Origin: Chloroflexota bacterium
Lineage (GTDB): Bacteria > Chloroflexota > UBA11872
Assembly: GCA_026707585.1 (NCBI GenBank)
Contig: JAPOWQ010000029.1
Location: forward strand, 1-64,000
Direction: 5' to 3'
DNA: 64,000 bases
Part shown: positions 7,191 through 63,346 of the stretch, piece by piece
Position numbering within the stretch: position 1 is the stretch's first letter
Layout of the letters: each line of letters begins with the position of its first letter
The notes under the pieces: model-generated
Seen by the model: only the letters and a program-made list of their open reading frames with translations
The model's database searches: none
Told to the model about the DNA's origin: nothing
Translations under genes and position numbers: made by a program

Positions 7191-8825
7191 CTAGCCAGAG
7201 GCGCGGAGGATGCCGGTGGGGCCTCGGCGGACGAGGATGAAGGCGATGGGGAGCGCGGCGACGACGATCAGCAGGAGGGACGACGAGGCGGCCTGGGCGA
7301 AGAAGGCTTCGTCGGCGGCGGCCCAGGTGACGGTGGCGAGGGTGCGGAAGCCGATGGGGCCAAGCAGAAGGGCGGCCGGGAGCTCTTTCATGACAAGCAG
7401 AAAGGCCATGGCGGCACCGGCGGCCAGGCTGCCCCGCACAGCGGGGATGGTGACTCGCCAGAGGACCTGGCGAGGGCTCTTGCCAAGGGTGCGGGCGGCT
7501 TCCTCGGTGCGTGGATGGACCTGCAACAGGCCGGCTCTGGCCGCGCCGAGGGTGGTGGGCAGAAAGAGCACCACGTAGGCAGCCAGGAGCAACACAAGGG
7601 TCTGGTAGATCGGCCGGGCTACATTGATGCCGAAGAAGATGAAGGCGATGGCCACGGTGATGCCGGGCAGGGCGAAGCCGACATAGGCGACACGTTCCAG
7701 CAGGGCCGCTATACGGCTGGGGCAGCGCACCAGCAGGACCCCAAGCGGAATGGCCACGACAACCAGCATGGCGGCGGCCAGCGCGGATAGGCTGACCGAG
7801 TTGACGAGGGGCTGGACCAGTTCGAGGAGTTCCTCGCCGGCGGCGAGGCCGCGAACAAGCCAGTACAGCAGCACGGCGCCGGGCCCCACCGTAGTGGCGA
7901 ATGCCACAAGGCCCATTCCGGCGAGTGCCGGCCAGCGCCAGCGGCGCAGCGGCGTGGGGCGGTACTCGCGCGTTGTGCCGGGGCCAAGGGGGTGGTAGCG
8001 GGAACGGCCGCGGCTGCGGGCCTCAAGGGCGACGATGGCAATGGCGGCGACGACCAGAACGAGCGAGAGGGCAGCCGCGGCGGCGCGGTCGAAGGCGGAT
8101 TGGTACTGCACGAAGATGGCGGCGGTGAACGTCTCGTAGCGCAGCAGTGAGACAGCGCCGAAGTCTGAGAGTGTGTAGAGCGCGGCGAGTAAAGCGCCGG
8201 CCGCAATGGCGGGACGCAGGGCCGGGAGGGTGACGGTGGCGAAGGTGCGGAGGGGGCCGCGGCCGAGGCAACGGCTGACTTCTTCCAGCGCCGGGTCAAG
8301 GCGGCGGAAGGCGGCGGTGGTAGGTAGGAGGACGTACGGATAGGTCAGGAGGGCAAGGGCAAGCAGGGCGCCAGGAAACCCGTAGATGGAGGGAAGCTCG
8401 GTGACACCAAACAGCGCTTCGAGCGCCTTCTGCAGGAGGCCGCGGGGGCCGAGGGCGGTGCCGGCCACGAGGGCGTAAACGAAGCTGGGAACAACGAGGG
8501 GCAGGACCATGACGACGGTCCACACGCGGCGGCCGGGAAGGTCGGTGCGGGTCAGCAGCCAGGCGATGGGTACGGCCAGCGCGATGGCGACAACGGTGAC
8601 CGAGACGACGAGCAGGAGGCTACGGCCGATGACGGCGGCGATGCGCGGGCGCGCCAGTAGCTGCCACGTCTCGGTCCCGGCGTCGAAGGACCGGATTCCC
8701 AGGTAGATGACCGGCAACAGGAGGAGCGCAGTGACCGCCAGGGCCAGGAGGGTCAGCCCCATTGGCGGGGACCGGCGGGTCGCAAAGGACCCGGGGAGGC
8801 GCTCGACTGCGGGGACCGAGGCCAT
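7191..8825 (-). CDS. Iron(III) ABC transporter permease, fused two-domain (FbpB/ThiP type)
   Basis: 544 aa with about twelve hydrophobic segments and two permease halves, each carrying an EAA-type loop: LEEVSRCLGRGPLRTFATV in the first and TEEAARTLGKSPRQVLWRV in the second. This duplicated layout is typical of FbpB/SfuB/ThiP importers. It starts 11 bp after the stop of the binding-protein gene, so they form one operon. No ATP-binding subunit gene adjoins; the next minus-strand gene is the propeller protein, so the ATPase must be encoded elsewhere. Confidence 0.88.
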   Translation of the reverse strand: MASVPAVERLPGSFATRRSPPMGLTLLALAVTALLLLPVIYLGIRSFDAGTETWQLLARPRIAAVIGRSLLLVVSVTVVAIALAVPIAWLLTRTDLPGRRVWTVVMVLPLVVPSFVYALVAGTALGPRGLLQKALEALFGVTELPSIYGFPGALLALALLTYPYVLLPTTAAFRRLDPALEEVSRCLGRGPLRTFATVTLPALRPAIAAGALLAALYTLSDFGAVSLLRYETFTAAIFVQYQSAFDRAAAAALSLVLVVAAIAIVALEARSRGRSRYHPLGPGTTREYRPTPLRRWRWPALAGMGLVAFATTVGPGAVLLYWLVRGLAAGEELLELVQPLVNSVSLSALAAAMLVVVAIPLGVLLVRCPSRIAALLERVAYVGFALPGITVAIAFIFFGINVARPIYQTLVLLLAAYVVLFLPTTLGAARAGLLQVHPRTEEAARTLGKSPRQVLWRVTIPAVRGSLAAGAAMAFLLVMKELPAALLLGPIGFRTLATVTWAAADEAFFAQAASSSLLLIVVAALPIAFILVRRGPTGILRASG

Positions 8826-8836
8826 CAGTCGCGGTT

Positions 8837-10051
8837 CTAGGGCAGGACTTCGAGTTGGCGCAAGAGCGCCTGGGTCCCCTTGAGGTCGGTCAGCTGCGAG
8901 GGAGCGATATCAGGCCTTTTGATGTTGTCCAGCGGCGTTACACCGGGATGCGTCTTGACGCCGGGCGCCATGGGGTACTCAAAGGTGTTGGACACGAAGT
9001 AGCTCTGTCCCACGTCGGAGAGCAGGAAGCGAATGAGGGCCTGCGCCGGTTCAGGGTTGGCCGCCGAGGCCAGGACTCCGGCGCCGGACACCATGATAAG
9101 CGCTCCCGGTCCACCGCCGCGTAGGTGGTAGTTGCGGGCGTTGAAGGACTCGCCCTGCTCGGACATGAAGCGGTGCAGGTAGTAGTGGTTGACGAAGCCG
9201 ACGTCGATCTCGCCGGCGGCGGCGGCGGCCACCTGCGGCGTGTTCTTGGGGAACTCAATGGGCTCGTTGGCCTTGATGCCCTCGAGCCACTCGGCTGTGC
9301 GGTCCTCGCCCCAGACGGCGCGCATGCCGGTGACCATGGCCTGGAAGGAGCCGTTGGTGGGGGCCCAGCCGATGCGGCCTTTCCAGGCGGGGTCGTGGAA
9401 GCCGAACATGTCGTCGGGCAAGTCGGCTTCGGTGAACTTCCGGTTGTTGTAGACGACGGTGCGGGCGCGACCGGTGACGCCGGTCCAGAGGCCATCGGCG
9501 TGCCGACCCCAGGCGGGCGATCGCTCGAGGATGTCCTGGGGCAGTGGGGCGAAGAGCGGTTCGACGGCGCCGAGGCCGCCGGGGTCTTGCGCGTAGAAGA
9601 GGTCGGCGGGTGAGTTGGCGCCTTCCTCAAGGAGGGTGGCGGCGAGGGCCGGGGTGCCGGCGTACTTGATCCGGACGTCGACACCGGAGATCTCACCGAA
9701 CTGGGCGAGCACTGGAGCGACGAGGGATTCGCTGCGGCCGGAGTAGACGGTGACCGTCTGTTGCCCGGGGGCCATCAGCTTTTCGACGGTGACGACCTTC
9801 TCGACGACGCGCTCGACGGGAATTTCCTTGACGACGGTTTGCGGGACGATCTTCTGGACCGGGACTTCCTTAACGACCGTCTGGGTGACGACTTTCTCAA
9901 CGGTCACGACCTGGGATTCGCCGCAGGCGGCAAGGGCGGCCGCGGCGACGGAAACCGCGGCGCCGACGGCGCCGATTCGCAGGAGGCGCCGGCGGCTAAG
10001 GCGGCCTGTGTCCGCAGGCTGGTTTTGCGGGGTTGGCCCGTCGTGAAGCAT
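8837..10051 (-). CDS. Ferric iron ABC transporter substrate-binding lipoprotein
   Basis: 404 aa. The N-terminus has a Tat-like SRRRLLRIG, a hydrophobic stretch and lipobox LAAC (Cys 43), then a ~45-residue VEKVV/VVKEVPV repeat linker before the mature fold (TVTVYSGRSESLV). The FbpA/FutA-type double tyrosine is present in VNHYYLHRF, the site that binds Fe3+ in this family. It binds ferric iron outside the membrane and delivers it to the permease downstream. There is no clear ribosome-binding site at the chosen ATG; a start a few codons further in is possible. Upstream lies an operator-like palindrome cluster. Confidence 0.88.
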   Translation of the reverse strand: MLHDGPTPQNQPADTGRLSRRRLLRIGAVGAAVSVAAAALAACGESQVVTVEKVVTQTVVKEVPVQKIVPQTVVKEIPVERVVEKVVTVEKLMAPGQQTVTVYSGRSESLVAPVLAQFGEISGVDVRIKYAGTPALAATLLEEGANSPADLFYAQDPGGLGAVEPLFAPLPQDILERSPAWGRHADGLWTGVTGRARTVVYNNRKFTEADLPDDMFGFHDPAWKGRIGWAPTNGSFQAMVTGMRAVWGEDRTAEWLEGIKANEPIEFPKNTPQVAAAAAGEIDVGFVNHYYLHRFMSEQGESFNARNYHLRGGGPGALIMVSGAGVLASAANPEPAQALIRFLLSDVGQSYFVSNTFEYPMAPGVKTHPGVTPLDNIKRPDIAPSQLTDLKGTQALLRQLEVLP

Positions 10052-10209: not shown

Positions 10210-10297
10210 TGGCGGAGAGGGTGGGATTCGAACCCACGTGGGGTTGCCCCCTACACGCTTTCCAGGCGTGCGCCCTAAGCCTCTAGGCGACCTCTCC
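10210..10297 (-). tRNA. tRNA-Ser (anticodon GGA)
   Basis: An 88-nt class II tRNA. The acceptor stem GGAGAGG pairs with CCTCTCC, the discriminator is G, and the 3' CCA is encoded. The anticodon loop reads CTGGAAA, giving GGA (Ser UCC/UCU). A long variable arm and the TTCGAATCC T-loop are present. Confidence 0.95.
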
Positions 10298-10383
10298 TGA
10301 GGGTGGATGCTAGCAAGTGCGGCAGCTTATTCCCGCGATGGGCGAGGTGCGGGCGGGATGGAGGGGTCTGGCCTGGGGTTGGG

Positions 10384-10471
10384 CGGAGAGGGTGGGATTC
10401 GAACCCACGTGGCGCTCATCACGCCTACTCGTTTTCGAGACGAGCCCCTTAAACCACTCGGGCACCCCTCC
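10384..10471 (-). tRNA. tRNA-Ser (anticodon CGA)
   Basis: An 88-nt class II tRNA. The acceptor GGAGGGG pairs with CCTCTCC (one G-U pair), the anticodon loop is CTCGAAA (anticodon CGA, reads UCG), and the variable arm is long. The T-arm and 3' acceptor strand are identical to the GGA gene 86 bp away, but here the 3' end is followed by CCC, so CCA must be added post-transcriptionally. Probably one of a tandem serine tRNA pair. Confidence 0.95.
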
Positions 10472-10564: not shown

Positions 10565-11077
10565 ATGGAGTCGCAGCGGATCGTGATCGGCCAGAAGGTC
10601 GAGCAATTCATCCATACGGACCCGGACGTGGCATGGCGGGCGTGGACCGACGGCTCGGAGCTCGTGCGGTGGTTCCCCGGCGTGAGCGAAGTTCGCAAGA
10701 CCGGGGATGGGCCGCTGGGCGTGGGGACCAAGGTGGCCGTGAAGGGCGCGGCCGAGGCGGAGATCGAGCTCCTGGAGTTCGATCCCGAACACCGGGTGTT
10801 CACGTACCGGCTGCCGACGCGGTATGCGGAGTTCCAGCCGCACCGGGCGAGCGTGCAAGTCAAGCATTCGCTGACCGGGACCGAGGTGGACTGGGTGCTG
10901 AAGCTGGACGACGAGGGCTTCAGCTTCTTCGGAATCGGCGGCAAGGCCAAGCGGGACGCGGACCTGGTGATGACGGTGTCGCTGGAAAAGCTGAAGGAAC
11001 TGCTGGAGGCGGAGGCGTACAGCACACCGGAGTTCGAGACCGACGAGCGGACCTCACGCTGGGACGACGGCGCTTAG
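10565..11077 (+). CDS. SRPBCC-fold protein (CoxG/AHSA1-like ligand-binding domain)
   Basis: 170 aa, a single START/Bet v 1-like domain. The N-terminal strand FIHTDPDVAWRAWTDGSELVRWFPG and mid-protein LLEFDPEHRVFTYRLP match the pattern of polyketide-cyclase/AHSA1 proteins, which bind hydrophobic ligands in a helix-grip cavity. AGGAGCCAGC upstream supplies a ribosome-binding site for the ATG. The stop overlaps by 4 bp the stop of the convergent hydrolase gene that ends the trp operon. Specific ligand unknown. Confidence 0.75.
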   Translation: MESQRIVIGQKVEQFIHTDPDVAWRAWTDGSELVRWFPGVSEVRKTGDGPLGVGTKVAVKGAAEAEIELLEFDPEHRVFTYRLPTRYAEFQPHRASVQVKHSLTGTEVDWVLKLDDEGFSFFGIGGKAKRDADLVMTVSLEKLKELLEAEAYSTPEFETDERTSRWDDGA

Positions 11078-12069
11078 GGACGCGAGGCGGTTTGGGCCGA
11101 GACGGAGGAGTCGGCGCCGTTGGTGGTCGGGGGCCTGGTGGCCGCGGTATTCGATTGATCCCCGCCGAGGTTGTGGCGTGAAGTGCGTGGGTCAGGTGCG
11201 ACGGACCGCTTGAAGAAGCCGGTGACGCGGTCGGCGTAGTCCTCGGGGTCGATCTGGCTGGCGAGAACGTGGCCGACGTCGGGCTCGAGCCAGAGTTCCC
11301 TGGGTTCGCCGGCGCGCTGGTACATGCGATGGGCGTCGGCCACGTCCACGAGGGGATCCAGGTGGCCGTGGGCGAGGCAGACGGCGCGGGGCGCGATGCG
11401 GGCGATGGCGTCTGCAACGGAAAAGTCGTCGACGTTTTCGCCGGTCATGCGTTCCGCCGCCCATACCACGGCGCGTCGGAAGGGGAGCGCGGGCAGGCCG
11501 GTGTAGGCCCCGAAGCCCTTGTCGATGGCGGACCGCAGCGACATGGGCGCGCAGTCAGTACATACAGCCTTGATTTCCGCGCGTTGGGCGGCGGCGGCGA
11601 GGGCGACGGTGCCGCCGAGAGAGTCGGCCAGGGCGACGATGGGGGCGTTGCCGAATTCCGGCTGGCGGAGGCAGAGGTCGACGGCGGCCGACAGGTCTTC
11701 GACTTCGCGGACGCCGCAAGTGCTGGTTGAGCCATCAGATTCGCCGCAGGCGCGGAAGTCGAGCAGCATGACCGAAAAGCGGCGCTGCCAGAGGCGGAAG
11801 GCACGGTTGGCCAGCACGGTGTGATTGACGCCGAGTCCGTGGACGAGGATGACGGTGGCGATGGGATTGTCGTGAGGCTTGATCCAGCCGGCGAGGCGGG
11901 TGCCGTCGACCGATTTGAAACGCACGCGCGCCGGGTTGAGGGGCAGGGGTTCCCAGTCAATCGGACGCCAGCGGCGGTTTGGGTGGACGATGACCCAAGC
12001 GGTGCGCAGGACGATGAGGGCGTAGGCGGCCGCGGTGAGACCGAGTCCGAGGAGGATGAGGCGGGTCAT
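11074..12069 (-). CDS. Membrane-anchored alpha/beta hydrolase at the end of the trp operon
   Basis: 331 aa. One N-terminal transmembrane segment (ILLGLGLTAAAYALIVL) is followed by an alpha/beta hydrolase domain: oxyanion region VHGLGVNH, nucleophile elbow ADSLGG, Asp in GHLDPLVD and His in PDVGHVL. The elbow is AxSxG rather than GxSxG. The last ~35 residues are low-complexity and Ser/Thr/Pro-rich. The ATG overlaps the trpA stop (ATGA), so it is translationally coupled to the tryptophan genes. Resembles BEM46/YqiK-type esterase-like proteins; the substrate is unknown and no tryptophan role is established. Confidence 0.75.
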   Translation of the reverse strand: MTRLILLGLGLTAAAYALIVLRTAWVIVHPNRRWRPIDWEPLPLNPARVRFKSVDGTRLAGWIKPHDNPIATVILVHGLGVNHTVLANRAFRLWQRRFSVMLLDFRACGESDGSTSTCGVREVEDLSAAVDLCLRQPEFGNAPIVALADSLGGTVALAAAAQRAEIKAVCTDCAPMSLRSAIDKGFGAYTGLPALPFRRAVVWAAERMTGENVDDFSVADAIARIAPRAVCLAHGHLDPLVDVADAHRMYQRAGEPRELWLEPDVGHVLASQIDPEDYADRVTGFFKRSVAPDPRTSRHNLGGDQSNTAATRPPTTNGADSSVSAQTASRP

Positions 12070-12854
12070 GCGGCGGCCGCCAGGCTGCGGACGTGCGCCG
12101 CCGCCGCCTCAATGCCCCGACCGGGCGGGCTGGCCTGGACGATGTCGATGAGCGCGCTGGCGACGATGGCGCCTTCGGCGCGGCCGTGCAGGGACCGCAG
12201 GTGCTCGGGTTTGGAGATGCCGAAGCCGACGACGCGGGGGATGGTGGTGGCTTTGCCAACTCGCGCCAGATAGGCGGGGAGACTTTCGGAGAGCTGGGCG
12301 CGGCTGCCGGTGACGCCGGTGACGCTGACGCAGTAGATAAAGCCCCTGGCTCCCTGGCCGATTTGCCGCAGGCGTGCGAGCGGCGTGGTGGGGGCCGCAA
12401 AGCGGATGACGTGCAGACCGTGCCGGGCATTGGCGGACTCGATGTCGTGGGCGTGCTCAGGCAGGACGTCCGGAACAATCAAGCCATCGGCGCCGGCCGC
12501 CGAGGATTCGCGCGCCAGCGCGCCCAGGCCGAATTGCATGAACGGGTTGGCGTAGCCCATCAAGGCCAAGGGAATGTCGGTGTGCGACCGAATGCGCTCG
12601 ACCAGGTGAAAGGCGTCCTCAAGCCAGACGCCTCCCTCCAGCGCGATCTGCGAGGCCAATTGCACGGTAGGGCCATCGGCGATGGGGTCGCTGAAGGGCA
12701 TGCCGATCTCGAGCATGTCGGCGCCGGCTTCAACGTAGGCGAGCGCCAGTTCGACGGCGGACTCGCGCGTGGGGTACCCAACGGTGACGTAGGGGGCCAG
12801 GACCAGGCGCGACTCGGCTTTGGCCGATTGAAAGGACGCGTCGATGCGGTTCAC
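12066..12854 (-). CDS. trpA: Tryptophan synthase alpha subunit
   Basis: 262 aa. It cleaves indole-3-glycerol phosphate to indole, channelled to TrpB. The catalytic Glu and Asp are in [17 protein letters not shown], and the phosphate-binding glycine motif [10 protein letters not shown] is present. Starts at a GTG overlapping the trpB TGA by 4 bp; its own stop overlaps the hydrolase ATG. Length is normal for the family. Confidence 0.97.
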
Positions 12855-14053
12855 GCGCGGGTACCGAGTCTGGCGGCGATGGTTTCCATGTCCTTGTCGC
12901 CGCGTCCGGAGAGATTGACCAGGATGATGTGGTCGCGGCTGACTTCGGGTGCGATGCGAAGGGCGCCGGCAATGGCGTGGGCGCTTTCGAGGGCGGGGAT
13001 TATGCCCTCGGTTTGGGCCAGCAACTGAAGGGCATCCATGGCGTCAGCGTCACCAAACGTGGCGAAGTCGGCCCTGCCGACATGATGCAGGTAGGCGAGT
13101 TCCGGCCCCACGCCCGGATAGTCAAGACCCGCGGCGATGCTGTGCGTGCCAATGATCTGCCCGCCTTCGTCCTGCAGGAGCAGGCTGCGGGCCCCGTGAA
13201 GGATTCCGAGGGTTCCGCATTCCACGGTGGCCGCATGCTCGCCCTGGTCACCTCCACGTCCCCCGGCTTCGACGCCGATGAGCGCGACGTCAGGGTCTTC
13301 GATGAAGGCGGAGAAGATGCCGATGGCGTTGCTGCCGCCGTTGACGCAGGCGATCACGGTGTCGGGCAGGCGGCCGGCGAGGTCCTGGATCTGGGCGCGG
13401 GCTTCGCGGCCGATGACGCGCTGGAACTCGCGGACGATCCTGGGGTAGGGGTGTGGACCAGTGGCGGAGCCGAAGAGGTAGAAGGTGGTTTCGACGTTGG
13501 TGACCCAGTCGCGGAGGGCCTCGTTGATGGCGTCCTTGAGGGTGCGGGTGCCGGAGGTGACCGAAATCACGTCGGCGCCGAGCACGCGCATGCGGGCGAC
13601 GTTGAGGGCCTGGCGATGGACGTCTTCCTCGCCCATGTAGACCACGCAGTCGAGACCGAGCATGGCGCAGACGGTGGCCGAGGCGACGCCGTGTTGCCCG
13701 GCGCCGGTTTCGGCAATGACCCGTCGCTTGCCGCTGACGCGGGCGAGCAGGCCCTGGCCGAGGGCGTTGTTGATCTTGTGGGCGCCGGTGTGGGCGAGGT
13801 CTTCGCGCTTGAGATAAATCTGCGCGCCGCCGAGTTCGCGGCTGAGGCGGGCGGCGTGGTAGGTGGGGGTGGGACGGCCGGCGTAGAGGTGGAGAAGGCT
13901 TTCGAGTTCCTTCACGAACGCGGGGTCGCGATGGTGGCGCTGGAATGAGGCTTCGAGCTCGTCGAGGGCGGCTACCAGCGTTTCGGGGACGTAGCGGCCG
14001 CCGAAGGGTCCGTAGTAGCCGGCGGCGTCGGGGAGTGCGCGGGTTACAAGCAT
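12851..14053 (-). CDS. trpB: Tryptophan synthase beta subunit
   Basis: 400 aa. Condenses indole with serine on PLP. The PLP lysine lies in [13 protein letters not shown], the catalytic Glu follows in AETGAGQHG, and the phosphate-binding GGSNAIG loop is intact. N-terminal [12 protein letters not shown] is the TrpB1 signature. It begins 2 bp after the stop of the lipoprotein gene, an unusual interruption between trpF and trpB. Confidence 0.97.
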
Positions 14054-14055
14054 CG

Positions 14056-15045
14056 CTAGCCTGGCGAATCGGCGAGGTCGCTTGGAATGCGGTTAATCAG
14101 GCGTTCGCCCAGGACCGTGACGACGCCCGGATCCTGGGCGCTCAGGTAAACAAGCTCGAAAATGGCGGACACGCGCCCCTCCCGCAGGATCAAGTAGTAG
14201 ATGTGGGGATCTCCGGGACCCAGCTCGCGTTCCTCCGGCTCGATTTTGGGGTCGATGCGCACCTCGATCAGGCGGTTTTGGTCAGCCAGGGTGAACTGGT
14301 CGGAGGTACGGGTTCCAGGCTCAAGGTCGGGATAAAACTGTCGGAAAAAGCCCAACGCCGCGATGGCATAGGTTGGCGCCGCGCTGTCGACGAGTTCTTC
14401 AAACATCCGGGAGGCGCCCTCGGCGTTGGCGTGGACGAACAGGCGCTGGACAAGCTGCACCGGACGGCCGGCGCCGCCGCCGGGCTGGCGGCTACTGCCA
14501 CTGACAAAGAAGCTCTCCAGGGCGGATTGGGCCATGAGTTCTTCGGACAGGAAGTCGGTTGGGTCCGATGACTCGTCGATGGTTTCGAGTCCCGGATCCA
14601 CCTCGGACGCGGGGATCGCAAGAGACCTGGCAGTTTCGTTGGCGGTGATGGCCGCGATGTCGACCTCGGGAAGCGGGGTCGGTTCGGCGGTGGGTGTGGC
14701 GTCGCCGGTCGACGATGGCGGGGTTGTTGTCGTCTGTGGGGGCGTGGCGGGACGGTCAGGCGGCGTTGGCGCGGGCTGGGTGGGCGAGGGCGCGGGCGCA
14801 GGCGTTGGATCGCCGTTCGGCGCCGCGGTGGGCGAGGTCAATGCGGCTGGAGCGGCGGCGGTTTCGGGTTGAGCGGGGGCGACCGGCGCGCTCACGACGA
14901 TGTCGTTCTGGCCCTCGCTGAACAGGAAACTGATGCGCGTAATGGGTTGGATTGGAGGCTCGCCGTTTTCGAGCTGGAGCCCGTGGGAACAGGCGGCTAG
15001 GGCGAACAGCCCCAGACCGAGCGCGGTGAGGCGGAGGCGGCTCAT
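14056..15045 (-). CDS. Lipoprotein of unknown function inserted in the trp operon
   Basis: 329 aa. The ATG overlaps the trpF stop (ATGA) and gives a signal peptide with lipobox LAAC (Cys 19). Residues ~55-135 are a Pro/Thr/Ala-rich spacer with repeated [18 protein letters not shown] runs, typical of a flexible tether. The remaining ~195 residues look like a folded extracytoplasmic domain ([10 protein letters not shown]... and LAERL-like C-terminal helices). No family is recognised. It is sandwiched with 4-bp overlap and 2-bp spacing between trpF and trpB, so it must be co-translated with them. Confidence 0.85.
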
Positions 15046-15659
15046 GCGCGGGCGGGCGCCGCAAAGGCCTGGCGGGCGTTGCGGATGAAGCGTTCGATCT
15101 TGTCGTGGTCCTTGCGCTGGTTGGTTTCCACGCCGCTGCTGACATCGACGCCGTAGGGACGCGTGGCGGCAATGGCGGCGCCCACGTTGTCCGGCGACAG
15201 GCCGCCAGAGAGGAGGACTCGGTATGCATTGGCCGCGTCGCGGGCGAGCGAGTAGTCCCACTGCTCGCCGGTACCGCCGGCCTGGCCTTCCACGAGGGCG
15301 TCGAGGTGGAAGAGCGGGACAGAGAAGTTGGGAAACTGGGCGTGGTCGTTGGGGAGCCGGAGGGTCTTGATGGCGCGCTGGCCGAGAGCCCGGCAGTAGG
15401 CGGGGGTCTCGGCACCGGAGAGTTGCACGCGGTCGAGCCGGCAAATGTCGATGATCTCGTTGACTTCCGCGCAGGGCGCATTAACGAAGACGCCGACGCG
15501 TTCCACGTGGGGTGGGGCCGTGTCGAATATGGCGCGGGCCTGGGCGAGGGTGCGGCGGCGACGAGCGCGAGCAAAGATCACGCTCACCATGTCGGCGCCG
15601 CTGGCCACGGCGACATCGGCGTCAGTCGGTTCCAGAAGGCCGCAGATCTTGATGAGCAT
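15042..15659 (-). CDS. trpF: Phosphoribosylanthranilate isomerase
   Basis: 205 aa, the expected size. N-terminal MLIKICGL carries the general-base cysteine; GADMVSVIFA and C-terminal VDVSSGVET hold the catalytic Asp and phosphate site. It isomerises N-(5-phosphoribosyl)anthranilate to CdRP, the substrate of TrpC. It lies 7 bp after the trpC stop and overlaps the following lipoprotein start by 4 bp. Confidence 0.95.
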   Translation of the reverse strand: MLIKICGLLEPTDADVAVASGADMVSVIFARARRRRTLAQARAIFDTAPPHVERVGVFVNAPCAEVNEIIDICRLDRVQLSGAETPAYCRALGQRAIKTLRLPNDHAQFPNFSVPLFHLDALVEGQAGGTGEQWDYSLARDAANAYRVLLSGGLSPDNVGAAIAATRPYGVDVSSGVETNQRKDHDKIERFIRNARQAFAAPARA

Positions 15660-15666
15660 GGGGCGG

Positions 15667-16446
15667 CTACTCTCCGGCCTCGACGAGCATGCGGAGTTGC
15701 TGGAGGGGATCGTCGGCCTTCATGATCGACTCGCCGACGAGGACGCCACTGACGCCGGCGGCGGCAAGCCGCTCGACATCATGGGCGGTGTGGACGCCGC
15801 TCTCGCTGACCACGGTGATTTCCTCGGGAATCAGCTTGCAGAGTTCTTCGGTGACGGCGAGATCGGTTGTGAATTCGCGCAGGTTGCGGTTGTTGATGCC
15901 GAGGATGCGGGCGCCGGCCAGGAGGGCTTCGTCGAGCTCTTCCTCGGTGTGGACTTCGACGAGGGCCTCCATTCCGAGCCGATGGACCAGGCCGATCCGT
16001 GCGGCAAGGTCTTGATCGAGCGTGAGGCCGGTGATGAGCAGAACCGCATCGGCGCCGTAGGCGGCGGCCTCGAAGACCTGGTAGTCGGTGATGACGAAGT
16101 CCTTCTGAAGGATGGGGAGGTCAGTAGCGGCGCGCGCCGCTGCCAGGTCGGTATGGGTGCCGCCGAAGAAGGGTTGGTCGGTGAGGACCGAGATGGCGAT
16201 GGCGCCGCCGGCCTGATAGCGGGCCGCCCAGGCGGCGGGATCGACGTCTTTGGCAAAGACGCCGGCAGAGGGCGAGCGGCGCTTGATCTCGGCCATTACC
16301 CCGACGCCTTCCTCATCCAGGGCGTGCCAGAGGGAGCGGGTGGGGCCGCGCTGGGCCAGACGGGCCTGGAGATCGGCAAGCTGTGCGCGCTCGGCACGGG
16401 CCGCCACGTCGAGGCGCTTGCGGTTGACAATGTCGTCGAGGATCAC
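15667..16446 (-). CDS. trpC: Indole-3-glycerol phosphate synthase
   Basis: 259 aa. The signature AEIKRRSPSAGVF contains the catalytic lysine; LQKDFVITDYQ, GINNRNLREF and SESGVH follow in family order. It converts CdRP to indole-3-glycerol phosphate. The start is GTG, 3 bp after the trpD stop. Not fused to TrpF here. Confidence 0.96.
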   Translation of the reverse strand: MILDDIVNRKRLDVAARAERAQLADLQARLAQRGPTRSLWHALDEEGVGVMAEIKRRSPSAGVFAKDVDPAAWAARYQAGGAIAISVLTDQPFFGGTHTDLAAARAATDLPILQKDFVITDYQVFEAAAYGADAVLLITGLTLDQDLAARIGLVHRLGMEALVEVHTEEELDEALLAGARILGINNRNLREFTTDLAVTEELCKLIPEEITVVSESGVHTAHDVERLAAAGVSGVLVGESIMKADDPLQQLRMLVEAGE

Positions 16447-16449
16447 GAC

Positions 16450-17475
16450 CTACGCTCCGTCGCTCCTGTTCGAGACGTCGACGAGACGGTCGAGGCAGGC
16501 GAGGGCGGCACCGCTCTCGATGGCGGTTGACGCGCGCCGCACGCCATCACGCCAATCGTCGGCAATGCCAGCGGCGACGAGGGCGCCGGAGGCGTTGGCC
16601 AGGACTACGTCGCGTCGGGGGCCGGTGTGCCGACCGGCCAGGAGATCGCGGGTGACGTGGGCCACGGCGCCGGCATCGCGGGTTTCGAGTTCCGAGGCGT
16701 CCACGACGGGGAGGCCGAAGTCGGCCGGCGTGATTTCGTACTGGGTCACGGCGCTGTCGCTGACATCAAAGACGCGGGTTGGGCCGGTGAGCGAGATCTC
16801 ATCCACGCCGCCGTGGCCGTGAACGACGAGGGCGCGGCCAATCCCGAGTAGACGCAGGGCCTCGGCGATGGTGGACGGGAGGTGGGGATCGCCGACGCCG
16901 AGCAGACGCCGCTGGGCGCCGGCGGGGTTGGTAAGCGGACCGAGGATGTTGAAGACGGTGCGAATGCCGATTTCGCGTCGGAGCGGGCCGGCGAAGCGCA
17001 TGGCGGGATGAAAGGCCAGCGCGAACATGAAGGCCACGCGGGCTTCGGCAAGGGCCACGGCCGCGAGGTCGGGCCCAGCCATGAGGTTGACGCCGAGCGC
17101 CTCAAGGACGTCGCCGCTGCCGGCCGGACGAGTGACGCCGCGGTTGCCGTGCTTGGCGACCAGAGCGCCAGCGCCCGCGGCGACGAAGGCAGCGGCGGTT
17201 GAAACTCCCACCCAGCGGGTGCGGCCGCCACCGGTGCCGCAGGTGTCGACGAGCGCGGCACTGTCGACGTCGACGCGCAGGGCGTGGCGGGTCATGCTGG
17301 CGGCGAAGCCGGCGATTTCGGCGGCGGTTTCACCCTTGAGCCGCAAGGCGGTGACGAGCGCGCCGAACTGGGCGGGCGTCATCGCGTCCTCGAGGATTGC
17401 GTCCATCAGGGCGGTTGCCGTCGCAGTGTCGAGGTTGTCGCCATCGACAACGGTACGGATGGCGTCGGTAATCAC
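16450..17475 (-). CDS. trpD: Anthranilate phosphoribosyltransferase (divergent PRPP loop)
   Basis: 341 aa, with a GTG start overlapping the trpG stop by 4 bp. It transfers phosphoribose from PRPP to anthranilate. KHGNR and the Mg-binding VDEIS motif are intact. However, the loop usually reading GTGGDGxxTFNxST here reads GTGGGRTRWVGVST, and the following SSxxGSAD reads TRPAGSGD. Position in the operon still makes TrpD the best call; altered PRPP or anthranilate handling is possible. Confidence 0.92.
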   Translation of the reverse strand: MITDAIRTVVDGDNLDTATATALMDAILEDAMTPAQFGALVTALRLKGETAAEIAGFAASMTRHALRVDVDSAALVDTCGTGGGRTRWVGVSTAAAFVAAGAGALVAKHGNRGVTRPAGSGDVLEALGVNLMAGPDLAAVALAEARVAFMFALAFHPAMRFAGPLRREIGIRTVFNILGPLTNPAGAQRRLLGVGDPHLPSTIAEALRLLGIGRALVVHGHGGVDEISLTGPTRVFDVSDSAVTQYEITPADFGLPVVDASELETRDAGAVAHVTRDLLAGRHTGPRRDVVLANASGALVAAGIADDWRDGVRRASTAIESGAALACLDRLVDVSNRSDGA

Positions 17476-18056
17476 GCGGCTACCGGTATTTCGGCCAACC
17501 GGAGGAAATTCCGCAGGAGGGCGGGTCCGGCGGCGGTCAAGATGGATTCCGGGTGGAACTGCACGCCGTAGATGGGGTGCGAACGATGCTGCATTCCCAT
17601 GATAAGCCCGTCGGGGCTCTGGGCCGTGACCTCGAGTTCGTGCGGCAGGCCGTCCCGCTGCACGATCAGCGAGTGGTAGCGGGTCGCGTCGAAGGGATTC
17701 GGCAGATTCTTAAAGAGGCGGCGGCCGTCATGAGCAATGGGCGAGGTTTTGCCGTGCATGAGCACGGGGGCGCGGACGACGCGGCCGCCGAAGGCGGCGC
17801 CGATAGACTGGTGGCCGAGGCAGACGCCGAGAGTGGGGACGGTTGGGCCGAGCGTGCGGATGAGATCGACAGAGATTCCCGCCTCGTGCGGGGTGCAGGG
17901 GCCGGGTGAGATGACGATGGCGTCGGGGGCCATGGCCTTGACGTCGTCCACGGAGACCACATCGTTGCGATAGACGGCGACGTCCGGTTGCAGGACCTGG
18001 AGGTACTGCACGAGGTTGAAGGTGAACGAGTCGTAGTTATCCAAGACGAGCAGCAC
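17472..18056 (-). CDS. trpG: Anthranilate synthase glutamine amidotransferase subunit
   Basis: 194 aa from a GTG at 18056, chosen because the protein then begins LLVLDNYDSFTFNLVQYL as in all class I TrpG/PabA proteins. A strong GGAGGAGG sits 6 nt upstream inside the end of trpE (20-bp overlap). The triad Cys is in GVCLGHQSIG and His-Glu in FHPES. It supplies ammonia from glutamine to TrpE and may also serve para-aminobenzoate synthesis. Confidence 0.95.
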   Translation of the reverse strand: MLLVLDNYDSFTFNLVQYLQVLQPDVAVYRNDVVSVDDVKAMAPDAIVISPGPCTPHEAGISVDLIRTLGPTVPTLGVCLGHQSIGAAFGGRVVRAPVLMHGKTSPIAHDGRRLFKNLPNPFDATRYHSLIVQRDGLPHELEVTAQSPDGLIMGMQHRSHPIYGVQFHPESILTAAGPALLRNFLRLAEIPVAA

Positions 18057-19542
18057 GGGCCGCCTCCTCCGCGAGCTGGATGGCCTGCAGCACGGCGCGA
18101 GCCTTGTTGACGCACTCCTGGTATTCGGTGGCCGGGACCGAGTCAGCGACGATGCCGGCACCGGCCTGAACGTGAGCCTGGCCGTTGTGGGCCAGCAGGG
18201 TGCGAATGGTGATGGCGGTGTCCATATCGCCGGAGTGGCTGATGTAGCCGACGGCGCCGCCGTAGGGGCCGCGGCGCAGGTCTTCCAGTTCGGCGATGAT
18301 CTCCATGGCGCGGATCTTGGGGGCGCCGCTGAGGGTGCCGGCGGGGAAGCAGGCGCGGAGGGCGTCGACGCCGCTGAAGCGCGGATCGAGCCGGCCGCTC
18401 ACGTCGCTCACGATGTGCATGACGTGGGAGAACTTCTCGACGGTCATGAGGTCATCGACGTTGACGGTGCCGGGCCGGGAGACGCGGCCGAGATCGTTGC
18501 GGCCGAGGTCAACGAGCATGACGTGCTCGGCGAGCTCCTTGGGGTCGGCCAGGAGGTCGCGTTCGAGTTCGGCTTCCTGGTCCGGCGTTGAGCCGCGGGG
18601 GCGCGTGCCTGCGATCGGTCGAGTGCGGGCATGTCCGGCCACCGCCTGGAGGAGCATTTCGGGCGAGGCGCCGGCCAACTGCAGACTGCCGCAGTCCAGG
18701 AAGAACATGTAGGGGGACGGATTAACGCGCCGCAGGTGGCGGTAAACCTGGAAGGCGTCGACATTGAGGGGGCGGCTGAACCGGATGGAGGGCACGACCT
18801 GAATGATGTCACCGGCGGCGACGTATTCCTTGGCCCTGCGCACGCAGTCCTCGAATTCGGCCTGGCTCATGCTCTGGGAAGCGCCGTCGCCGTTCGCGGC
18901 AGGAAGCGGGGGCGGCGCGGCATAGGGACCGTCAAGTCGCCTGGCCTGGCGATCGAGACGGGTCTCGGCAGCGGCCAGGGCGGCGTCGGCATCGCCAACG
19001 GGATGCACGAGGGTCACGAGTCGCAGGACCTGTGTGACATGGTCAAAGACGACCAGGTCGTCGCAGTACATGAATACGGCGTCGGGCACGCCAAGGGTGT
19101 CCCGCTCGGGGACCGGCAGGCGTTCGAAGTCGGCCGCAACGTCGTAGGTGAGGTAGCCCACGGCACCGCCCTGGAAGGGTGGAAGATCGGGGTGCGTGGC
19201 AATAGGGAACGGGTGCCGGAGTCCGGCGATGAAGTCCAGCGGATCGTCGTAGGTCCGCGACACGGGTTGGGCGCCGCCGCTGACCACGGTGGCCTGGCCG
19301 TCGCGCAGGCGGGCGACGGTACGGGGGCTGCCTCCCACAAAGGAGTAGCGGCCGACCGACTCGCCGCGCTCGACGCTCTCCAAGAGAAACGAGGGACCGT
19401 CGCCGCGCAGCTTGAGGTAGGCGGCGACGGGGGTGTCGAGGTCGGCGGGGAGGTCCCGGAAGACGGGGACGCCACGCCCGGCACGCAGTTGCTGGAGCGT
19501 CCAAGCGCATGTGTCCGTGCGTGACGGTGCAGTGGACAGCAT
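18037..19542 (-). CDS. trpE: Anthranilate synthase component I
   Basis: 501 aa. Contains the tryptophan feedback-site motif LLESVERGESVGRYSF, the chorismate-binding segments IQVVPSIRFSRP and TRPIAGTRPRG, and the Mg-binding C-terminal half ending in GAGIVADSVPATEYQE. AAGGAGGGG precedes the ATG by 5 nt. First gene of the operon, downstream of a T-box leader, so it is controlled both by uncharged tRNA-Trp and, from the conserved LLES motif, probably by tryptophan inhibition. Confidence 0.96.
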   Translation of the reverse strand: MLSTAPSRTDTCAWTLQQLRAGRGVPVFRDLPADLDTPVAAYLKLRGDGPSFLLESVERGESVGRYSFVGGSPRTVARLRDGQATVVSGGAQPVSRTYDDPLDFIAGLRHPFPIATHPDLPPFQGGAVGYLTYDVAADFERLPVPERDTLGVPDAVFMYCDDLVVFDHVTQVLRLVTLVHPVGDADAALAAAETRLDRQARRLDGPYAAPPPLPAANGDGASQSMSQAEFEDCVRRAKEYVAAGDIIQVVPSIRFSRPLNVDAFQVYRHLRRVNPSPYMFFLDCGSLQLAGASPEMLLQAVAGHARTRPIAGTRPRGSTPDQEAELERDLLADPKELAEHVMLVDLGRNDLGRVSRPGTVNVDDLMTVEKFSHVMHIVSDVSGRLDPRFSGVDALRACFPAGTLSGAPKIRAMEIIAELEDLRRGPYGGAVGYISHSGDMDTAITIRTLLAHNGQAHVQAGAGIVADSVPATEYQECVNKARAVLQAIQLAEEAARAARLG

Positions 19543-19565: not shown

Positions 19566-19602
19566 AAATCAAAAGCCTCTCGCCAGCAAAGGGGGCGAGA
19601 GG
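19566..19602 (-). terminator. Intrinsic terminator of the trp T-box leader
   Basis: On the minus strand CCTCTCGCC pairs with GGCGAGAGG around a 9-nt loop (stem 19576-19602), followed by CTTTTGATTT. In the T-box mechanism it forms when charged tRNA-Trp binds; otherwise the T-box sequence just upstream pairs into the antiterminator. Confidence 0.85.
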
Positions 19603-19842
19603 TTTGTGGCCTTCGCGGTGCCACCCCTGATTCAAGCGCCGAGGACGCTCCTCACAGGTACGGAGCCAACGGCTCGATACCCTGCCCGGATCACGGTGGG
19701 CTTCCGTCGGAGCCTACTGGGCGATGCCGTTCGGTCCGCGGCTCCCGGGGCCATTCGACGCTGTCTCCACGACCGGGCTTTCAGCACCTGGCCCGGCTCT
19801 CTGGCGTGGGGATTCGCGCGTACTCGTCCCGATCAACGCCTT
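19566..19842 (-). promoter_or_regulatory. T-box riboswitch (tRNA-Trp) controlling the trp operon
   Basis: The 15-nt T-box AGGGGTGGCACCGCG is at 19614-19628 (minus strand). Stem I begins with GATCGGGACGAGTA, has the distal AGAGAGCCGGG..AGGTGCTGAAAGCCCGG fold, and shows a specifier in CGAATGGCC, with UGG (Trp) at 19751-19753. The terminator follows and trpE starts 24 nt after it. The UGG codon and the gene downstream agree, so the leader should sense uncharged tRNA-Trp and allow read-through under tryptophan starvation. Confidence 0.93.
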
Positions 19843-19852
19843 TCCGGTGGCA

Positions 19853-61339: not shown

Positions 61340-63331
61340 CTACTCCTGGGTGCTGTAGAACTGGCCGAAGAACGGCAGGTAGTCGATTCCGAGGAACAAC
61401 TCGCCGCCGATGCGGTCGGGGTTCGTCAGCCACGGCAGGTAGTCGTGGACCAACGGGATCGCAACCGCGTTCTCCATCAGGTAGAGCTCGGCCTCTTCCC
61501 AGAGAGCCTTGGCCTCTTCCGCGTCGAAGCTCGCGCGCGCCGCCTCCAGCAGCCCGTCGATCTTCGCGTTCGGCGTGGCCGACTCGGGAACACCGTCGTA
61601 CTCGAAGAATGAGTAGGAGCGGTTGGCTCCGCCGTACGAGGCGGTGTGGAAGCGGTCGTACATCACGTCGCCGCTGGGCGCCGCAACGCCGATCCAGGTG
61701 GTGTGATAGAGGCCCTTGGAGGCGCCTTCGCGGTGCGTGGCGCCGTCCATCTTCGGGATGTCCACGAAGATGCCGAGGTTCTTCTCTACATCCAGCTTGA
61801 ACAGCTCGACGACGGGGTCGCCGCGGTCCGGGTAGCTGATTTCCAGCCGCCGGCCATCCGGGGCAAGCCGGAAGCCGTCCGAGTCCTTCTCGGCGTAGCC
61901 ACCCTCGTCCAGGATCTGATTGGCCTTGCCCACGTCATACGCGTAGAGGTTGCCGGCCTCGGCGCTGCGGCCGATCGTGCCCGGAACCAGCAGGTTGCTG
62001 ATGTTGAGCGGAGCGGTGCCGCCGTTGGCGCGCACCGTCACGGTCCGGCGGTCGACGCCGAAGAGCAACGCCTTGCGCACGTTCAGGTCATCGAGCGGCC
62101 AGAGCTGCGTGTGCAGCGGCATGTACTGCCCCATGCCAGGAGCGGCGTAACCGATGACGTGGTACTTGGCGTTCTCGGACACTCGCTTGTAGTCCGCGAA
62201 CGACCAGTTCAGACAGATGTCCACCTCGCCGGCCTCAAAGGCCGCCGCGTTGTCCGTCATGTTGTACCCAAGGATTTGGATACGCATCCGGTCCGGATAC
62301 GGCGCGCCCTGGTGCGCGAGGAACGACGGACCCCAGTTGTAGTCCTCGTTGCGGTCGAAGACGACCTTGACGTCGTCTTCCCACACGCCCGACCACTTGA
62401 AGGGGCCGGTTCCGACCGGGTCGCGGCTGAAGGCCTCGCCGCGCTCCGTGACCGCCTTGGGCGATGCCATGCCGGTGTGCTGGTGCGCGATGGAATGGAG
62501 GAATGACGGGGGCGACTGCGGCTGCGGGGTGTGGATCCGAATCTTGAAGTCGTCCACTTTTTCCACGCTGCCCATGGACGCAACGTCGCGAATGACGTGG
62601 CCGCGGGCCAGTTCCGGATCCAGGAACCGGTGGAAGTTGAAGACGGCCGCATCAGCATTGAACGGTTCGCCGTCGTGGAAGACCACATCGTTGCGGAGCG
62701 GGATCACCCAGGAGAGCTTGTCGTCCGCAGGCTCTGGAAGGTCGGATGCCAGGTGCGGGTAAATCAGGTTGCCTGAGCCGTAGGTGTAGAGCAGGTCGTA
62801 CATCACCGCTGCCGGCTCGGCACTGCGACCGCCCCAGGTGGCCGGGTCAAAGCCGGTGGGGTTGCCGAACGTCATGTAGCTGACTTCGCCACCCGGCTTG
62901 GGGTCCCACGGCTTGGCGCCGATGGCTACGGACTCGTCAAGGTTGTAGATGTCGATGCCGGGCGCGCGCTCGGCGGCCTGCTGGACGATCTTCTCCACGA
63001 CCCTTTCGACGATCTTCTCGACCTCGACGACCTTTTCGACCTCGACTTCGACCGGTACCTCGACGACCTGCTTGACCTCAACCGTCCTGGTGACGAGCTT
63101 CTCGACCTCTTGGGTCACGATCCTCTCGACCGGGACTTCCTTGACTTCGGTCTCGCGGACGATCTTCTCGACCGGGACTTCCTTGACCACGGTCTTCTCG
63201 ACCGGGACTTCCTTCGTGACGACCTGCGTCTCACCGCAGGCGGCCAAGGCCGCCGCGCCGACGCCACCGGCCAGGCCGGCCAGACCAGTACGGATGACGG
63301 CCCGCCGACTTACGCTCGGCGTCTTGATCAT
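61340..63331 (-). CDS. Peptide/solute-binding lipoprotein of ABC importer (DppA/OppA family 5)
   Basis: About 663 aa from ATG 63331, chosen because GGGGAGG lies 7 nt upstream; the ATG two codons earlier abuts it. Tat-like SRRAVIRTG, hydrophobic segment and lipobox LAAC (Cys 32). Residues ~35-125 are an EVPVEK/VEKVV repeat linker, longer than in the iron protein. The family-5 fold then shows GNPTGFDPATWGG, WVIPLRNDVVFHDGEPFNA and RKALLFGVDRRTV. The ligand is unknown: a peptide, glycan fragment or other solute. Confidence 0.92.
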   Translation of the reverse strand: MIKTPSVSRRAVIRTGLAGLAGGVGAAALAACGETQVVTKEVPVEKTVVKEVPVEKIVRETEVKEVPVERIVTQEVEKLVTRTVEVKQVVEVPVEVEVEKVVEVEKIVERVVEKIVQQAAERAPGIDIYNLDESVAIGAKPWDPKPGGEVSYMTFGNPTGFDPATWGGRSAEPAAVMYDLLYTYGSGNLIYPHLASDLPEPADDKLSWVIPLRNDVVFHDGEPFNADAAVFNFHRFLDPELARGHVIRDVASMGSVEKVDDFKIRIHTPQPQSPPSFLHSIAHQHTGMASPKAVTERGEAFSRDPVGTGPFKWSGVWEDDVKVVFDRNEDYNWGPSFLAHQGAPYPDRMRIQILGYNMTDNAAAFEAGEVDICLNWSFADYKRVSENAKYHVIGYAAPGMGQYMPLHTQLWPLDDLNVRKALLFGVDRRTVTVRANGGTAPLNISNLLVPGTIGRSAEAGNLYAYDVGKANQILDEGGYAEKDSDGFRLAPDGRRLEISYPDRGDPVVELFKLDVEKNLGIFVDIPKMDGATHREGASKGLYHTTWIGVAAPSGDVMYDRFHTASYGGANRSYSFFEYDGVPESATPNAKIDGLLEAARASFDAEEAKALWEEAELYLMENAVAIPLVHDYLPWLTNPDRIGGELFLGIDYLPFFGQFYSTQE

Positions 63332-63346
63332 GTGCATCCTCCCCTT

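Follow-up and report, generated by a model that had tools for sequence, protein, structure and literature searches.

The tryptophan operon on the minus strand of the 64,000-nucleotide stretch analysed here (the window) contains a lipoprotein gene. In our reading its product is a lipid-anchored surface protein that is co-regulated through the T-box, has a sensor-like binding domain, and plays an accessory role. We hold this reading with slightly better than even confidence; the fold is predicted, and we infer both the co-induction and the binding. The initial annotation had placed a 329-aa lipoprotein with a Pro/Thr-rich tether between trpF and trpB, with a 4-bp overlap on one side and 2 bp on the other, and the open reading frame and its translation confirm the coordinates, the length, and both junctions. 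The ATG of the gene lies within an ATGA common to the trpF stop codon, and 2 bp separate its own stop codon from the trpB ATG at 14053 (Table 1). The 4-bp overlap with trpF is exact in all nine near relatives measured, while the second genus has 2 bp before the lipoprotein gene and a 4-bp overlap after it, and, of the three second-family genomes that carry the gene, two have looser spacing. The reading frame is not a chance one, because the folded domain shows a pN/pS of 0.08 in eight same-genus pairs. No paralogue was found in the same genome.

Table 1. Features of the tryptophan operon and of the lipoprotein gene in the window.
Feature	Position	Strand	Basis
T-box leader (RF00230), specifier UGG at 19751-19753	19588..19845	-	UGG-bearing counterparts in 4 relatives
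Intrinsic terminator of the T-box, CCTCTCGCC...GGCGAGAGG followed by a T-run; overlaps the antiterminator	19574..19602	-	read from sequence
trpE	18037..19542	-	ORF list
trpG, listed ORF; the real start is probably near 18060	17472..18161	-	ORF list
trpD	16450..17475	-	ORF list
trpC	15667..16446	-	ORF list
trpF, upstream neighbour of the lipoprotein gene, 4-bp overlap	15042..15659	-	ORF list; junction comparison
Lipoprotein gene, 329 aa	14056..15045	-	ORF and translation; orthologues at the same place in 19 family genomes
Signal peptide and lipobox LAA|C, residues 1-19	14989..15045	-	read from translation
Conserved membrane-proximal segment, residues 19-54, C[ST]HGxxLENGxRP..T..xFLF.EGQ	14884..14991	-	conservation; pN/pS 0.16; predicted disordered
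Pro/Thr/Ala-rich variable tether, residues about 55-126	14668..14883	-	pN/pS 0.54; length variation; pLDDT <50
Folded domain, residues 127-320, PknH-sensor-like alpha/beta fold (predicted)	14086..14667	-	AlphaFold2; Foldseek to 4esq, 7cu8; pN/pS 0.08
trpB, downstream neighbour of the lipoprotein gene, 2-bp gap	12851..14053	-	ORF list
trpA	12066..12854	-	ORF list
Alpha/beta hydrolase with hydrophobic N-terminus, last operon gene	11074..12069	-	Pfam Hydrolase_4, 4.9e-13; same place across the order

The operon reads trpE-G-D-C-F-lipoprotein-B-A-hydrolase and lies downstream of a tRNA-Trp T-box. With 76 bits (E = 2e-15), the match of this T-box, which precedes trpE, is under the curated Rfam cut-off of 93. 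Four relatives belonging to two families have a T-box with a UGG specifier in the equivalent position, and one of these four exceeds the cut-off. The terminator hairpin of the window T-box is mutually exclusive with the antiterminator. From trpC to the hydrolase gene, all intergenic gaps are 7 bp or less. A simple sigma-70 scan, which is weak for a G+C-rich genome, found no consensus promoter for the lipoprotein gene itself, and promoters inside the operon coding sequence are possible. An operon broken by an own promoter or terminator was considered and rejected, as there is no promoter consensus and terminator-like sites are no more frequent than in shuffled sequences. The genome has two other T-boxes, one ahead of an acetolactate synthase-type gene and one ahead of an operon with ileS (names read from translations). 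At locus L107 (1735-2749, minus strand), a T-box with an apparent Ile (AUC) specifier precedes an AlaX-like open reading frame and then ileS.

Because the operon has a T-box and gaps of at most 7 bp, because no promoter was found, and because the other T-boxes precede amino-acid genes, co-transcription of the lipoprotein gene with the trp genes under T-box control is well supported, as inferred from gene packing and sequence. The coupling inside a T-box-controlled operon that had been proposed initially is supported, given the tight junctions, the UGG specifier and terminator, and the equivalents in relatives; the own promoter that had been named as a possible objection did not appear in the scan. 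The same T-box-controlled mRNA would yield the tryptophan enzymes and the lipoprotein, with translation of the latter coupled to trpF, and uncharged tRNA-Trp would raise the lipoprotein level. Judging from the operon, a shortage of tryptophan would probably bring about synthesis of the lipoprotein along with that of the tryptophan enzymes.

All 19 family genomes, from two genera, have the trpF-lipoprotein-trpB order, with the locus of one cut by a contig end, and so do three of the five sister-family genomes; the possibility that the arrangement might be unique to this contig can be set aside. A search for related loci gave ten, from Chloroflexota genomes; nine of these show the full trpE-G-D-C-F-lipoprotein-B-A-hydrolase order and one ends inside the lipoprotein at a contig end. 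Judged from their names, the relatives appear to include marine-sponge isolates. A profile search of the class found the lipoprotein in 19/19 family genomes and gave a marginal match in one genome of a second family within the same taxonomic order, and it was by reading the trpF-trpB interval directly that the sister-family cases were found, at identities down to about 23%. Among 400 genomes of the phylum, no true relatives were found outside the order. A wider spread in the phylum was rejected: eight genomes outside the order matched, solely through the N-terminal half of the profile or its Pro-rich tether, and these look like low-complexity matches.

The same comparison keeps alive a serious rival, namely that the protein is a co-transcribed envelope lipoprotein with no tryptophan role, whose gene came to lie between trpF and trpB in the common ancestor of the taxonomic order and was kept for good expression. 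Two sister-family genomes (G019 and G023) keep the operon without the lipoprotein, with trpF and trpB about 30 bp apart. Since these two retain the trp operon, the lipoprotein is, on the evidence of the genome sequences, dispensable for tryptophan synthesis as such at the lineage level. The slot also takes unrelated genes: in two other families of the class it holds trpS, while a genome of a further family (G025) and one of the two operons of G030 have nothing in it. We observed trpS in this position at loci L054-L057 and L059-L065 (other families of the class); genome G030 has two trp operons (L057 and L058), of which only one has trpS in the slot. The lipoprotein gene is like trpS in occupying the same slot, but the two proteins are unrelated, the trpS product being a cytoplasmic tRNA synthetase, and the trpS of the source genome lies on another contig. 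Moreover, genes of unknown function inserted in trp operons, one of them between trpF and trpB, have been described as possible morons (PMC2395257). Compared by description and not by sequence, that gene resembles ours in its slot and in having no known function, although that paper mentions no lipoprotein. A tolerant slot, these earlier reports, and a second envelope-type gene in the operon, the terminal hydrolase, which has no obvious tryptophan role, are what the passenger explanation has in its favour. It has to contend, however, with a position strictly kept in 19/19 family genomes and with a genome whose other T-boxes precede amino-acid genes, and we consider it the less probable account, though one to be taken seriously.

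The sequence of the protein is consistent with export and lipid anchoring. The lipobox comprises residues 16-19, and the lipid-bearing Cys19 is invariant in 17/17 relatives. The genome encodes both the Lgt and LspA families, with two matches to PF01790 and one to PF01252 above the cut-off. Signal peptide, lipobox, invariant cysteine, and the presence of Lgt and LspA are together the features of a bacterial lipoprotein. We propose that the protein would be extracytoplasmic and lipid-anchored, with a conserved membrane-proximal segment, a flexible tether, and one alpha/beta domain of the PknH-sensor type. The membrane-proximal segment, which follows the lipid cysteine, is kept across genera yet predicted to be disordered.

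In eight same-genus comparisons with the window, pN/pS is 0.08 for the C-terminal domain, 0.14 for TrpB, 0.15 for TrpA, 0.15 for TrpC, 0.25 for TrpF, and 0.54 for the tether. The folded domain is under strong purifying selection, and such a low ratio counts against the passenger explanation. Between genera, the lipoprotein diverges faster, with an identity of about 37% versus about 74% for TrpB.

No sequence-based family was found for the lipoprotein in Pfam, NCBIfam, PHROG, PDB sequences, or plasmids, and its weak sequence matches fall on the low-complexity tether; the profile search thus gave no annotated family, and the possibility raised initially of a known protein with an unrelated role was not borne out. 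The structure prediction that had been suggested at the same time returned a confidently folded domain, since AlphaFold2 with 17 homologues gave a domain pLDDT of 90.8 and a pTM of 0.88, with a disordered tether. In a Foldseek search of the PDB, the predicted structure had two kinds of match at E <1e-3 and no others, the extracellular sensor domain of PknH (4esq) and the soluble domain of TiME (7cu8/7cu9), with TM scores of 0.52-0.59 across these matches and a high rmsd of about 7-8 A. The best structural match is the sensor domain of Mycobacterium tuberculosis PknH (4esq, PF14032), at E 6e-6, probability 1.00, TM 0.53/0.55, and rmsd 8.4 A. Like our protein, as predicted, it is a single extracytoplasmic alpha/beta domain tethered to the membrane; unlike PknH, the lipoprotein has no kinase and no disulfides, and a lipid anchor takes the place of the transmembrane helix. 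A review (PMC3601408) describes the PknH sensor domain as having a large cleft and two disulfides, and its ligand has been suggested to be some small molecule, whereas the only cysteine of the window protein is the lipidated one and its folded domain has none. The second best fold match, the mycobacterial TiME soluble domain (7cu8, 7cu9; TM 0.55/0.59), differs in sequence (10% identity), organism, and genomic context. Membership in PknH_C (PF14032) was rejected on the absence of both a sequence match and disulfides: a Pfam scan gave no match for 17 relatives at E up to 1, and PF14032 had no match in five genomes (the source genome and four related ones). The match is therefore at the level of the fold, and the predicted domain at most works like the PknH sensor domain. 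A viral origin was also rejected, since none of the viral folds matched below E 1e-3.

Under cognate bias (PMC4209129), a protein required while an amino acid is short tends to contain little of that amino acid. The aligned lipoprotein contains no Trp in 17/17 family loci, and the one Trp of relative L035 is in the signal peptide. Per 1000 aa, the trp enzymes have 0-7 Trp, the operon hydrolase 27.8, and the genome 15.6, the latter as a baseline from a 229-kb sample with crude gene calling. The second-family (sister-family) relatives of the lipoprotein have 2-5 Trp. The Trp-free sequence is as expected of proteins made in tryptophan starvation, and it speaks against a passenger; it is only suggestive, because 8 of the 127 sampled genes with 230 aa or more lack Trp, so that about 6% would qualify by chance, and because the tether lowers the expectation.

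It is conceivable that the lipoprotein is a factor dedicated to capturing or sensing tryptophan, indole, or an aromatic precursor, and that it thereby increases uptake or signalling under tryptophan scarcity. Such a factor would fit the T-box operon position, the extracytoplasmic anchor, the Trp-free composition, and the predicted fold of a presumed small-molecule sensor with the cleft described for PknH (PMC3601408). However, no transporter or receptor gene adjoins the lipoprotein gene, and two sister-family genomes do without it, so we regard this role as unlikely. The bolder form, in which the operon encodes its own surface protein of the PknH-sensor fold, free of Trp so as to allow its synthesis in starvation, and this protein links the internal T-box response to aromatic metabolites outside, seems to us just as doubtful.

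We also considered that the lipoprotein may be the partner of the membrane-anchored alpha/beta hydrolase, the two making up an envelope module within the trp operon. The two genes share the operon throughout the family, but G019 and G023 retain the hydrolase although they lack the lipoprotein, and the hydrolase is Trp-rich whereas the lipoprotein is Trp-free, which makes this partnership very improbable. The hydrolase gene overlaps trpA by 4 bp, and its place is conserved across the order. Two tandem tRNA genes lie just downstream of the operon (10213-10471) and occupy the same place in relatives L009, L013, and L036. Further along, 7191-10051 encodes a probable iron ABC transporter permease and a solute-binding lipoprotein whose lipid cysteine is followed by repeated VVKEVPV-type motifs, and a lipoprotein similar to the latter is encoded at 61340-63337.

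We favour, then, the co-regulated surface protein with an accessory role. An extracytoplasmic binding role is plausible from the predicted fold; at the surface of the cell the domain would most likely bind either a small molecule or a membrane partner, and its contribution would be accessory and non-catalytic. The initial interpretation is supported in part, in that a sensing or capture role fits the predicted PknH-sensor-like fold, while tryptophan or indole as the ligand is speculation.

Should the domain bind an aromatic metabolite, this uncultivated lineage of Chloroflexota would offer an unusual example, an operon for amino-acid biosynthesis that brings along its own factor for sensing or capture at the surface. 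Even without aromatic binding, the lipoproteins form an order-restricted family that has no database name, a confident predicted fold, and a firm operon position, and for these reasons the family is a good target for guilt-by-association tests.
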